From the NCBI GenBank assembly GCA_017440935.1, contig JAFSAO010000012.1, forward strand, positions 1 through 35,139: a stretch of 35,139 nucleotides of DNA, read 5' to 3'. The notes under the pieces were generated by a model. That model was not told where the DNA came from and did not search any database. It saw nothing but the letters and a program-made list of their open reading frames with translations. Numbering within the stretch: the first letter of the stretch is position 1; every line of letters starts with the position of its first letter. Of the stretch, positions 481-35,139 are shown piece by piece. The position numbers were made by a program, and so were the translations under genes. The DNA comes from Opitutales bacterium (lineage in GTDB: Bacteria > Verrucomicrobiota > Verrucomicrobiia > Opitutales > UBA953).

Positions 481-520
481 AAAGCCGTTCCCGCAGAAAA
501 GTTTTGCGGGAACGGCTTTT
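481..520 (-). terminator. infC terminator built from two inverted CGGGAACG motifs
   Basis: A hairpin of about 16 bp (AAAGCCGTTCCCGCA against TGCGGGAACGGCTTT) with a short loop ends in a T-run on the minus strand, 67 bases beyond the infC stop. The stem is nearly symmetrical and could work in both directions. Its core is one motif copy facing another. Confidence 0.8.
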
Positions 521-586: not shown

Positions 587-1264
587 TTATTCTTCGTCGC
601 CGACTTCTTCATCGTCGCCGAGATCGTCGTCTTCGAGCGGCGAGGAATTGTGGACAAGTTTTCGCTTTGCCTGAGCGACGGGCGAAAGCATCGCCGTAAT
701 AGCGCGCCCTTGCAACTTCGGCTTACTGTCGAGCACGCCAATGTGTGCAACGGCTTCGACGAGGCGTTGCACGGCTTCAAAACCGAATTCCGGATGCTCG
801 AGTTCTCGAATACGAAACATGAGCGTTACTTTCACTTTGTTCCCGTTGAAAAGGAACATTTCCGCCCGACGCACTTTGACCATGAGGTCATGCTCGTCAA
901 TGCGCGGACGCATTTTGACTTCCTTGAGCTTGGTTGCGGACTGCTTCTGCTGTTTCTGCTTTTTCGCTTCTTCGTAAAGGTATTTTCCGTAATCAACAAT
1001 ACGGCAAACGGGCGGCTGTGCGTTCGGTGCAATTTCGAGCAGGTCGAGGTCGTGAGCCTTCGCCAGGGAAAGCGCGGACGATGTCGCCATGATTCCGAGC
1101 TGTTCGCCGCGCGGACCGATGACGCGAATTTCGGGAACGCGAATGCGCTCATTTCGGCGCGGACCCATGTCCCGGCGGTTATTGTTTCGATTATTATACG
1201 ATCCGCGGTTCTGACCCGGACGGGCGGAATTATTGTTCCCGCCGAACTGCTTCGGTGCTGCCAT
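587..1264 (-). CDS. infC: Translation initiation factor IF-3
   Basis: IF-3 binds the 30S subunit, checks the start codon and initiator tRNA, and prevents premature 50S joining. Both domains are clear: the N-terminal [21 protein letters not shown] and [15 protein letters not shown], a Lys/Gln-rich linker (KKQKQQKQ), and the C-terminal [21 protein letters not shown]. At 225 aa it is longer than the usual ~170-180. It has an Asn/Arg/Gly-rich extension of about 35 residues in front and a strongly acidic tail ([15 protein letters not shown]) behind. The usual infC-rpmI-rplT order is absent; a terminator follows directly. No Shine-Dalgarno precedes the ATG at 1264. The neighbour upstream is the divergent symporter. 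Confidence 0.96.
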
Positions 1265-18971: not shown

Positions 18972-19014
18972 AAAAAAAACGTTCCCGCAATTGCTCGCGG
19001 GAACGTTTTTTTTT
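18972..19014 (+). terminator. ilvC terminator from two inverted CGGGAACG motifs
   Basis: An A8 tract with CGTTCCCGC, a short loop, then GCGGGAACG with T9 forms a near-perfect long stem. It also suits the convergent porin gene on the minus strand. Confidence 0.93.
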
Positions 19015-21145: not shown

Positions 21146-21158
21146 GTTCCGAAAAAAA

Positions 21159-21194
21159 ACGGAAAAACACGTTCCCGCGAATTTTTCCGTTTTC
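21159..21194 (+). terminator. lptB terminator with a motif copy in its loop
   Basis: CGGAAAAA (21160-21167) pairs with TTTTTCCG (21182-21189), followed by TTTT. The loop holds CGTTCCCGCG. It is fairly AT-rich and moderate in strength. Confidence 0.65.
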
Positions 21195-24655: not shown

Positions 24656-25600
24656 ATGATTAAAAAATTTCTCATCGCCGGACTTTGCCTCACGCTCGCG
24701 GGAACGACCGCGTTCGCCGCATTTTCCGCGAAAACTTTTGCCGCCGCGAAAAAGCGCGACGCCAAAGACGGCATTTTAGTTTACTTCTACGGACCGGATT
24801 GGGACGTTCGCAGCACCAAAATGCTCAAAACTCTTTGGGATAATGCGGAAATCAAAAAAGCCTGCGGAGATTCCGCAATGCTCGCTATTCCCGTTTACCA
24901 AAACCCGAATGAAAAGCAGAAAAAAAATGCGAAAACCATTCGCGAAGGCATGAAAATTCCGCACATTTTCTCCTACCCGGCGATCGTAATGTGCAACAAT
25001 GACGGATACACTTACTATATTCTTCAGGGCGACGAAATTTTTGAAGAAACACCCAAAGTTGCCGAAACCATCAAGACCAAGCTCAAACTTTTCCGGGAAC
25101 AAAAAGCGCTTTTGAAAAAAGCCGAACGCGCCAAAGGTCTTGAAAAAGCCAAACTTTACGGCGAAGCGATGCTCGACGGAATCAACCCGCCGGAAGATGC
25201 GCTCAAAATCCTCAAAGCCAACGACCCGAAGGGCGAACTCCCTTACACAAAACGCCTGGAATTTGACGTTTTTAAACTCATCACGGAACAAACTTATAAA
25301 GACCCCGATAAACCCGACAAAGCACTGATTACGCCGGACGCCGCCGTCGCACTCGTCACAAAACTTGCGATCGAAGACCAGACGACCTACCTGCCCTGGC
25401 AACGCCAGGAACTTCTCGCCGCCGCTGCCGGATATTTGCGCCGCGTCGACAAAACAGACGCACGCATCAAAATGCTTCACAAAAAAATTCTTGAAATCGA
25501 TCCCGAATCCGGCTGGGCGGATTTCGTAAAAGATTCTGAGGATCTTTGGATCAGCCCCGAGAAAAAGGACAAAAAAGATAAGCGTCGCCGCAAAAAATAA
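24656..25600 (+). CDS. Secreted thioredoxin-fold protein lacking the CXXC cysteines
   Basis: This 314-aa protein has a signal peptide (MIKKFLIAGLCLTLAGTTAFA). ILVYFYGPDWDVRSTKMLKTLW (residues 40-61) has the shape of a thioredoxin active-site strand and helix, but WDVRS stands where WCxxC should be, so no disulfide chemistry is expected. The cis-Pro region may be HIFSYPAIVM. The C-terminal half is helical and ends in a strongly basic tail (KKDKKDKRRRKK). The role may be binding or scaffolding next to its neighbour. It starts 53 bases after the transglutaminase-like gene and ends in a strong terminator. Confidence 0.65.
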   Translation: MIKKFLIAGLCLTLAGTTAFAAFSAKTFAAAKKRDAKDGILVYFYGPDWDVRSTKMLKTLWDNAEIKKACGDSAMLAIPVYQNPNEKQKKNAKTIREGMKIPHIFSYPAIVMCNNDGYTYYILQGDEIFEETPKVAETIKTKLKLFREQKALLKKAERAKGLEKAKLYGEAMLDGINPPEDALKILKANDPKGELPYTKRLEFDVFKLITEQTYKDPDKPDKALITPDAAVALVTKLAIEDQTTYLPWQRQELLAAAAGYLRRVDKTDARIKMLHKKILEIDPESGWADFVKDSEDLWISPEKKDKKDKRRRKK

Positions 25601-25611
25601 AAACGACAGGC

Positions 25612-25659
25612 AAAAAAAAACGTTCCCGCGAGAAATTTTCGCGGGAACGTTTTTTTTTT
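25612..25659 (+). terminator. Terminator from two inverted CGGGAACG motifs
   Basis: An A9 tract and CGTTCCCGCGA (25621-25631) pair with TCGCGGGAACG (25639-25649) and a T10 tract. It ends the thioredoxin-like gene and also suits mdh on the minus strand. Confidence 0.93.
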
Positions 25660-25671
25660 CGCGGATTTTGC

Positions 25672-26670
25672 TTAGAGCGTGCAACCGAGAGCATCGGCAG
25701 CCGTGTCGCGTTCTTCGCAAAGTTCCTTGATTGAAGCATCGATTTTCGCGCGAGCGAAATCGTTGATCGGAAGGTTCGGGACGATTTCCCAAGTTCCGTC
25801 TTCCTTCGTGCGAATCGGGAAGCCCGTAATGATGCCCGGAACCGTGCCGTATTCGCCCTTGGAAACAACGCCGACGCTGAACCAATCGCCCGCCGGAGTC
25901 GGGTTGACGAGGTTGCGAACGGTTTCAATCGCCGCATTCGCCGCCGAAGCCGCCGAGGAAGCACCGCGAGCTTCGATAATTGCGGCACCGCGCTTCTGCA
26001 CGGTCGGGATAAACGTGTTTTCGAGCCACTCCTTGTCGGAGATGACTTCCGTCGCCGGCTTTCCGCCGATCGTCGCGTTGAAAAAGTCCGGGAACTGCGT
26101 CGACGAGTGGTTGCCCCAAATCGTCATATTCTTCACTTCGGAAACGTGAACTCCCGCTTTCTTGGCGAGCTGAGACTTCCCGCGATTTTCGTCGAGGCGC
26201 GTCATAGCGAAGAAATTTTCTTCGGGAACGCCACAGGCATGACGCATCGCGATCAGCGCGTTGGTGTTGCACGGATTGCCGACGACGAACACGCGAACGT
26301 CTTTCGCCGCATTTTCGGCAATCGCTTTGCCTTGTCCGACGAAAATTTTGCCGTTGATGCCAAGCAAATCCTTGCGTTCCATACCGGCCTTGCGCGGAAC
26401 GGAGCCGACGAGCAAGCACCAGTTTGCATCCTTAAACGCAACAGCGGGATCTGCCGTCGCGACGATGTCCGTCACGAGCGGGAACGCGCAATCTTCAAGT
26501 TCCATCACCACGCCCTGGCACTTCGGAAGCGCCGGTTCAATTTCGAGAAGGTTCAGCGCAACGGGCTGATCCGGACCAAAAACTTCGCCCGCTGCAATGC
26601 GGAAAATGAGCGAATACGCGATTTGTCCGGCGGCACCGGTAATCGCAACACGAATGGGAGCTTTTGCCAT
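25672..26670 (-). CDS. mdh: Malate dehydrogenase (type 2, cytosolic-like)
   Basis: It interconverts malate and oxaloacetate with NAD(H). The 332-aa protein starts [21 protein letters not shown] (Rossmann GxxGxx) and has the long-form features: [15 protein letters not shown] with substrate arginines, [24 protein letters not shown], and the catalytic histidine in [13 protein letters not shown]. Size and motifs match the cytosolic/Thermus type and not the lactate-dehydrogenase-like type. No Shine-Dalgarno is present. It is divergent from dps; the 194-bp spacer carries the dps operators on the far side. Confidence 0.95.
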
Positions 26671-27519: not shown

Positions 27520-30500
27520 ATGTATCTAAAAGAAATCGTCATCAACGGATTCAAGAGTTTTGCCGACCGAACCCGCATCGACCTTAAACCGGGCATCACC
27601 GCAATTGTCGGTCCGAACGGGTGCGGAAAATCGAACATCGTTGACGCGATTCGCTGGGTTTTAGGGGAGCAGAGCGCAAAAGCGCTGCGCGGCGGCTCGA
27701 TGCACGACGTTATTTTCTCGGGAACGGACAAACGCAAGCCGCTCCCCTACTGCGAAGTCGAACTCATTTTTGCGGACTGTGAAAAAGACCTCGGCACAGC
27801 GTTCAACGAAGTTTCAATCGTCCGTCGCGTTTCGCGGGAAGATTCTTCGGATTATTTTCTCAACGGAAAATCCTGCCGGCTGAAAGACATTCAGCGGTTG
27901 TTCATGGATACGGGGGTCGGACGCGTTTCCTACTCGTTCATGGTGCAGGGGCAAATTGACCAGATTCTTTCGGCAAATCCCGCAGAGCGCCGCACACTTT
28001 TTGAGGAAGCCGCAGGCATCACGCGCTACAAATCGCAGCGCAAGGAAGCTCTAAGCAAGCTCGGCATGGTCGACCAAAACCTTGCCCGCATTACCGATGT
28101 CATTGACGAGATTTCCCGACAAATCGGCTCGTTAAAGCGCCAAGCAGCGAAAGCACTTCGCTACAAGCGCACGCAACACCGCCTGCGCCACCTCGATTTG
28201 GCATCGCTTGCACACCAATTCTGTGTCCGCCGCGCAACGATTACGGATTTGGAAACCCGCGCGGGAACGCTACGCGAAACCGTTGCCGCCCAGCGCAACG
28301 CGCTACGGGAACGCGAAGAAAAACTCGCCGAAACCAAAGTTGCCCGCGCCGAACTCTTCCAGCGCATTGAGCAAGGCACACAGATGGCATTTGCTCTGCG
28401 CTCCGAAAAAGAAAACGCGGAAGCGCAGATCCAAATGGCGGAAGTCCGCCAAAATGACCTGCGGGAACGCATCGCGCAGGTCGAGCAGGAAGGCGTAGCG
28501 CTCGCCGCCCGACGTGCGGAGCTGGACGCGCGTTTGCAAGGCAACGCTTCCAATAAGGAACAGCACATCGGCAACGTCGAAGGCGCAGACGAAGTTTACC
28601 GCAAAAGCCAAAGCGAGCTCGAAAAACTGCTCGCAGACCTTTCCGCCGCCGATCGCGCGCTCGCGCAGGAACGCCAGGAGCTTTTGATGAGCGAAGGCGA
28701 AATCACGCGCCACCGTGCGACCGTAACCAACATCGAAGTCGAGCTTCGCACCTCGGAATCCCGCCACGCCGAAATCGCCAACACGCTCGCCCAAATGCGC
28801 GCGGAACGTTACGCACTCGAATCTCGTTTTGCCGAAATTCAGACAGTGGCTGAAACGCGCCGTGCGGAGCACGCCCGCGCGCGGCAGGAAGTTGCCGAGG
28901 CGCAGGAACGCGGAAAATCCCTCGTCGCGCAATTTCGCGAGCAACAGCAGAAGATTTCGCAACTCGACCGCGTTGTCGCCCGCACGTCAGCACAGTTGAA
29001 TGTTTTGGAACAACAGCAGGCGAAATTTGAAGGATTTTCCGCCGGAGCCAAAGCGATTCTCAAAGGAGAACTCGGCGAAAGCGTTCCCGCGGAAACCGCG
29101 TTCGCGCTCAACTCGCTGCTCGAAATTTCGGATTCGGAAAACGCCGTCGCGATTGAAGCGTTGCTTGGAGCCGCCTCCGAAGCGCTCGTTTTCGATAACG
29201 CGATTTCCGTTCCCGCCGTCGCCCGGATTCTCGCGGAAAGAGAAGTCGGAAGTGCTTTTCTCGCCGACGCGAAAATCGCGCTCCCGCGAGCAATCAACAA
29301 CGCGGAAGCGCCCGTTCCCGCATTCTTAAAACGGGCGGGAACGCTTTTTTCCGTAAAAAATGCAGCGCTCGAAAATTCCGTTCGCGCCCTTTTCGACCGT
29401 TGTTTCGTGTGTGATTATCTCTCGGATTTTCTCGCGTTTTTAAAAGAAAATCCCGGCTTTGATTTTCTGCTCGTCTCCTCGATTAACGGGGAAACCGTCG
29501 ATTGTCGCGGCTTCATTCACAGCGGTGCGAACACCGGAAAAAGCGGCAGCGTTTTCCAACGCCAAAACGAACTGCGCCAGCTCAAAGAGCGACTCACGGC
29601 AGAAAACGACGCGCTCACCGAAGCCAACCAACGGTCCATGGAAATTCAGGCGGAAATGGACGCGAACGAAACCGAAACCGAGCGCCGCCGCGTCTACGCC
29701 TCCGAAATCGCGCAGGAAATTTCCAACATCAACGCCGACGAACGCTCCGCGGAAAAAGCACTCAACGACAACGCCGCCGCCCTCGCCCGTCAGGAAAACC
29801 TTCTCGCGGAATTTGAAGATAACCACGAACGCGCACAAGCCCGCATGGAAAACGCGCAATCCGGTCTCACCGCCAAAGAAACCGAAATTTCTGCGCTCAA
29901 AACCCGCATCTCCGAAGGAGAAACCCGTATTATCGCGCTACGCAACGAAGTCGAAAACCGCCGCGACGCGCTCAACGAAGTCCGTTTCGATCTCGCGCAG
30001 AAGAAGCAACAGCTGGAACTTTTTGAGCGCGAACTCGCCGAAGTGCGTTCGCAAATCGAGGATATTTCTTCGCGCATCGCCACGCGGGAACGAGAAAAGG
30101 AAATGATGTTTTCCCAAATTGCCGCCTTCGGCGAACAGGCGGAAAATGCGCGTTCCCGCGCCGAACAGCTTGCGGGAACGATTGCCGAAGCCGCCACCGC
30201 GCTCGATGCACAACGCGCCGAACTCGGAAAACTCGAAGCCGATGCGGAAACGCTCGACCGTTCGCTCGTTTCCGAACGCGAAACTTTGCGCGAAAACGAG
30301 ACGCAACTCAACGCGCTCGAAGTCCGCCTCACCGAAGAAACGTCTCAATGCGCGTTTGTTTCGGAGAAAGTTTCCACGGAATACCAGCTCGACGTCACAT
30401 CGCTCGACTGGAAACAAAATCTCTGGCTCGCCGACGAAGAATTTGAAACCAAAGTCCGTTTCGACGAACTCGAAGACGACGGAGCCGAAACCGAAATCCG

Positions 30501-34990: not shown

Positions 34991-35139
34991 TTAAAAGAGC
35001 ACTGAAAGTTGTGGCGCGGAAGGCATGGCGTTCCCGCATGCGGGAACGCCATGCGGCGCGAAAAGTGCCAGGCGGAGAGACTCGCGGATTTGGCGGTTGA
35101 GTTCGCAAAAGTGAATCTTGGCTTTTTCTCCTAAGAGTG
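34991..35139 (-). CDS. Possible 3' end of an unknown gene (doubtful)
   Basis: Reading minus from the window edge gives 48 codons to a TAA at 34991, with a plausible start region (EKAKIHFCELNRQIRESLRLALF). The C-terminal half covers the 32-bp palindrome, is Pro/Ala-rich, and other frames are also open here, so a non-coding reading is equally possible. No family is recognised. The rest of the stretch 34835-34990 holds no gene; it contains a degenerate arm of the CAAATTGAAATTTAGC family at 34885-34910. Confidence 0.28.
   Translation of the reverse strand, partial: LLGEKAKIHFCELNRQIRESLRLALFAPHGVPACGNAMPSAPQLSVLF
35023..35054. repeat. Perfect 32-bp palindrome built from two CGTTCCCG motifs
   Basis: Each half is 16 bases (GCATGGCGTTCCCGCA and its reverse complement) joined with no spacer. 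No T-run follows on either side, so it is not a classical terminator. Confidence 0.92.

Follow-up and report, generated by a model that had tools for sequence, protein, structure and literature searches.

A DNA-uptake-sequence-like word of one verrucomicrobial genus and its probable co-option for transcription termination

The nine-letter word CGTTCCCGC is probably a DNA-uptake-sequence-like self-recognition word of a single verrucomicrobial genus that has been co-opted for termination. It came to light in a stretch of 35,139 nucleotides, hereafter the window, from the genome of an Opitutales bacterium (contig JAFSAO010000012.1). The original prediction described three terminators in this window with the word in both stem arms and a fourth hairpin with a copy in its loop. 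Exact arms were found at all three sites and the loop copy was located; the last three features listed below had not been noticed before.

1-35139, two strands together: 57 exact copies of CGTTCCCGC (1.2 expected; none of 100 shuffles reaches 57)
18973-19010, both strands: predicted bidirectional intrinsic terminator between ilvC (KARI, plus strand) and a porin gene (minus strand); the arms are the word, at 18980-18988 (plus) and 18997-19005 (minus)
481-519, minus strand: predicted intrinsic terminator 3' of infC (587-1264, minus strand); arms 486-494 and 506-514
25612-25659, both strands: predicted bidirectional intrinsic terminator between a gene of unknown product (24656-25600, plus strand) and malate dehydrogenase (25672-26670, minus strand); arms 25621-25629 and 25641-25649
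21156-21193, plus strand: weaker terminator-like hairpin after an ABC transporter ATPase gene; single word in the loop, 21170-21178
29313-29343, unstranded: inverted word pair within the smc coding sequence
30151-30180, unstranded: inverted word pair within the smc coding sequence
35029-35048, unstranded: inverted pair forming a perfect 20-base palindrome of two words and a 2-base spacer, without a T-run

Whichever strand is folded, the three paired hairpins reach energies between −24 and −30 kcal/mol, with z from −5.2 to −8.7, and none of 200 shuffles folds as well, whereas the hairpin with the loop copy is weaker (−14.3 kcal/mol, z −2.2). Because the hairpins starting at 18980 and 25621 lie between convergent genes and have A/T runs on both sides, they could work in both directions; for the hairpin at 486-514 it is the minus strand, 3' of infC, that has the better U-tract. 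In the related species G005, the counterpart of 18973-19010 has the same word stem with another loop, the terminator at 25612-25659 is conserved as well, and both the hairpin at 21156-21193 and its loop copy recur. At least five other terminator-like hairpins in the window, near 2885, 5776, 8318, 27430 and 31295, do without the word.

Genome-wide (1,835,357 bases, 98% complete), the word occurs 3,353 times, 1,663 times on the plus and 1,690 times on the minus strand, and the reversed word, used as a control, only 52 times (14 plus, 38 minus). Each of six species of the genus, including this one, carries 3,060-4,396 copies. Two congeners are motif-poor, G001 with 743 copies and G006 with 336, which is still above their reversed controls (62 and 37). 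Among 240 genomes of the phylum, representing about 131 genera, amplification is confined to this one genus; counts elsewhere are far lower, and in other genera of the same family they are near or below their controls. With tolerated variants the core reads [C/t]G[T/c]TCCCG[C/T], with G favoured before it and G/A after it, giving the extended form gCGTTCCCG[C/T][G/A]. Single-base variants are enriched at some positions only, as would be the case for a recognition site, and there is neither flank conservation beyond about 11 bases around the copies nor any visible AT-rich extended motif. Spacing between copies is approximately exponential.

Short words that are highly iterated include HIP1 of cyanobacteria, which is palindromic, and Chi sites, which are strand-biased. 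The main rival to the uptake reading is that the word serves as a signal for recombination, repair or chromosome organisation (Chi-, KOPS- or HIP1-like) or as a methylation site, and entered terminators secondarily. We consider this unlikely, even though such words, too, would be expected to have thousands of dispersed conserved copies. The word is strand-balanced and its strand does not correlate with GC skew (rho −0.20, p 0.38), unlike Chi or KOPS; it differs from its own reverse complement, unlike HIP1; and it is amplified in a single genus. A Chi-like role specifically was rejected, as strand bias along the replichore is absent. Word strand does vary regionally (p 0.004), largely owing to one stretch, L103. 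There, at L103:1-10920, two giant adhesin-like genes (at least 1197 and at least 2419 codons) carry the word almost exclusively in one orientation, producing a local strand skew.

The word might also be a by-product of codon usage, repeated peptides or mutation bias. Genes were called with a self-trained model in a 433 kb sample and synonymous codons were shuffled within genes. About 77% of the sampled copies are coding, and the 641 coding copies far exceed the shuffled versions, which average 63 and never exceed 75. Two frames, encoding AGT and xVPA peptides, are favoured, which is what such a by-product would predict; nevertheless, the ten-fold enrichment extends to all six reading frames, intergenic copies are more than 100-fold in excess (189 versus 1.3 expected), the reversed word is rare, and codons within the word are conserved above the same codons elsewhere. 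This origin thus has next to no probability, and synonymous shuffling rules out a codon effect. The original prediction, which had taken the word to be functional rather than a codon effect, is borne out by the shuffling together with the cross-species conservation.

We surveyed predicted terminators in 520 kb from six motif-rich species, in stretches picked irrespective of word pairs. These stretches contain 93 predicted terminators at gene ends. The core occupies both arms in 39 of them (42%), a single arm in 15 and neither arm in 39, so that 58% carry the word in at least one arm. Convergent core pairs 3-20 bases apart are 4.5-fold enriched between genes (39 versus 8.7 expected from independent placement), intergenic divergent pairs number only 12, and pairs within genes are not enriched (20 versus 25.9 expected). 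Intergenic pairs are preceded by 5.9 A per 10 bases and followed by 5.9 T per 10 bases, about twice the intergenic background of 27%. A GC-rich hairpin followed by a T-run just 3' of genes is what is expected of an intrinsic terminator, and the orientation-specific use of the word in such terminator-like hairpins emerges clearly from these predictions. The hairpins could instead be mRNA-stabilising or protein-binding 3' structures, given that their terminator role is read from sequence features; we regard this as improbable, since A/T tails, siting at gene ends and two-way symmetry between convergent genes are hallmarks of intrinsic terminators. Terminators lacking the word, which the original prediction had held to count against a functional motif, do exist, yet they do not refute it, because nearly half of Neisseria terminators are likewise without their own word.

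Some elements are compound: inside a word pair sits a second hairpin resembling G[G/A]CGAAAG[C/T]C, with T-rich sequence after it. They were seen at G000:C12:39187-39224, C7:70491-70528, C12:129987-130024, C12:178162-178199 and C19:78688-78724, with similar ones in G003, and their inner stem displays compensating changes. The type IV pilus secretin operon itself ends in a word-pair predicted terminator, at L094:4327-4365 (G000:C4:29327-29365).

Comparison across the genus separates maintenance of the word from maintenance of the hairpin. In aligned orthologous codons, 79% of the words of this genome are intact in G005, 68% in G003, 63% in G007 and 75% in G002; in-word codon conservation in these four relatives exceeds that of the same codons elsewhere (0.93 versus 0.75, 0.73 versus 0.55, 0.75 versus 0.51 and 0.82 versus 0.48). 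Even in the far more diverged G004, 27% of the words are whole and codon conservation is 0.39 in the word versus 0.27 elsewhere. In the motif-poor species only 11% (G001) and 7% (G006) of the words are whole, and the corresponding codon values (0.43 versus 0.36 and 0.29 versus 0.32) show little or no excess. As judged from the genome counts and these alignments, the word is genus-specific and selectively maintained. In the ComEC tree a clade of five motif-rich species stands opposite a clade of G004, which is rich, and the poor G001 and G006. This topology fits an ancestral word that G001 and G006 have lost, separate gains of an identical word being less likely.

The two motif-poor genomes retain the paired copies. 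Exact convergent pairs number 15 in G001 and 6 in G006, whereas copy density predicts about 1.7 and 0.4; in sampled stretches of the two genomes, eight pairs are intergenic versus 0.3 expected. In other terminators of these species the arms are near-words that have changed in step with each other, for example CGTTCCTG...CAGGAACG and CGTTCTCGC...GCGAGAGCG. In G001, 10 of 41 terminators are within three mismatches of the word over both arms (mean of 0.4 for shuffled words), compared with none of 19 in the outgroup G008. In these relic stems base pairing survives the decay of the word, which suggests that termination preserves the hairpin and that the letters depend on a different force, one that G001 and G006 have lost. 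The genus would be a natural experiment in which, once maintenance ceases, isolated copies are lost roughly at the neutral rate whereas hairpin copies persist, so that the two selective forces are separated.

These data also bear on the idea that the word is first and foremost a stem for terminators, which multiplied either in that role or as a small mobile element. The orientation bias and T-tails of intergenic pairs are what this would predict. Nonetheless, we give it very little credence: convergent pairs no more than 26 bases apart number just 48 among the 3,353 copies of the genome, most copies lie in coding sequence and in every frame, flanks are unconserved past about 11 bases, and in the poor species lone copies vanish while terminators persist.

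As for the letters themselves, we infer that they are maintained by preferential uptake of DNA coupled to recombination. Under the uptake reading, the competence type IV pilus would prefer DNA bearing the word, and homologous recombination of the imported DNA would keep and spread the word genome-wide. The sequences support the next step: with copies everywhere on both strands, convergent neighbours form ready-made GC-rich hairpins, and those adjoining a T-run at gene ends have probably been selected as intrinsic terminators, often two-way between convergent genes. G001 and G006 have stopped maintaining the word, and selection there appears to hold hairpins rather than letters.

The hallmarks of known uptake sequences that can be assessed in genomes are all present, the receptor apart. 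Neisseria genomes contain about 1,900-2,000 DUS copies on both strands, in genic and intergenic positions; DUS pairs within 10 nt in N. meningitidis are 226 convergent and 5 divergent, and DUS occur in about 55% of Neisseria terminators (PMC1852404). USS are found in 16-29% of Pasteurellaceae terminators, and the same orientation bias of pairs is seen in most of the Neisseria and Pasteurellaceae genomes compared; H. influenzae has 1,471 USS copies in 1.83 Mb, present in 23% of terminators, with 50 versus 25 close pairs (PMC1852404). The likeness to Neisseria drawn in the original prediction holds for each of the sequence features compared: copy number, strand balance, representation of every frame, an orientation bias among inverted pairs, A/T tails and share of terminators.

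Like the Neisseria DUS (GCCGTCTGAA), CGTTCCCGC has genic and intergenic copies on both strands and convergent A/T-tailed pairs as putative terminators. Unlike it, the word is unrelated, belongs to another phylum, is accompanied by no ComP-like basic pilin that we could find, and has a role in uptake that is predicted from sequence; the orientation bias is also weaker than for DUS (39 versus 12, intergenic, relaxed core). With the Pasteurellaceae USS (AAGTGCGGT) it shares many copies, occurrence in terminators and close pairs, and it differs in having more copies (3,353 in 1.84 Mb), a different word and no AT-rich extended motif. As a different word in a verrucomicrobial taxon, it falls outside the Neisseriaceae DUS and the Pasteurellaceae USS proper. 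Iteration of a short word is common to HIP1 and Chi too, although the palindromy of the former and the strand bias of the latter are absent here. Our literature search found neither the word as an uptake or terminator motif nor any paper tying uptake sequences to Verrucomicrobiota, and such sequences are given for two proteobacterial families only in PMC3630211, PMC13020248 and PMC12616744. On balance we favour, with some reserve, the view that a sequence-specific language of DNA uptake has arisen independently a third time, here in Verrucomicrobiota and with a receptor unlike ComP; it would be kept in six species and abandoned in two, where terminators would be its fossils. If true, a third case in another phylum would offer a comparative test of why uptake words evolve and of whether terminator use follows automatically. 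On the uptake reading, natural transformation with a preference for self DNA would also be expected of these gut-type bacteria.

The genome encodes PilB, PilT, PilC, seven pilin-like proteins, a PilQ-type secretin, ComEC and DprA. ComEC, PilT/PilB, pilins and DprA are present in all eight species of the genus and the secretin in seven. The secretin is nearest to the Amuc_1098 family of Akkermansia (E 1e-99, under the curated cut-off of that family), and its operon encodes an Amuc_1100-like protein. For KARI, the nearest named sequence comes from a MAG that bears the label Akkermansia; taken together, these matches suggest that the genome belongs to Verrucomicrobiota. Type IV pili and ComEC also occur in relatives without the word. 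Because the ComEC, PilT and DprA frames are intact in G001 and G006, the machinery does not explain the loss of the word there. Both species also possess an extra type II secretion cluster, and their pilin-like proteins number 10-11 rather than seven. Although a pilin that binds DNA should be basic, the proteins of the four-pilin operon are net acidic (pI 4.5-5.6), none being basic, and no candidate for a ComP-like receptor was found in the six pilins examined.

Sampling of four further genera in the family, and of four further families, revealed no strong word that could be a dialect. In G008 (genus g2; L158-L160, L168-L173), CGTACCCG and CACGGGTA resemble the word in their letters, show moderate over-representation and possibly constitute a weak dialect. 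G006 has clustered GGGTTGGTGGTG units, about 140 copies in 174 kb (L133-L137, L219-L227, L255, L256, L266); this repeat is different from the word and absent among the top words of other species. Twenty-five viral contigs carry the inverted pair, and none of the stretches sampled from them has more than five copies of the word. Finally, the malate dehydrogenase encoded at 25672-26670 of the window is 95% identical to that of G001 (L128), compared with 69% for SMC, which may reflect either interspecies exchange or strong conservation.
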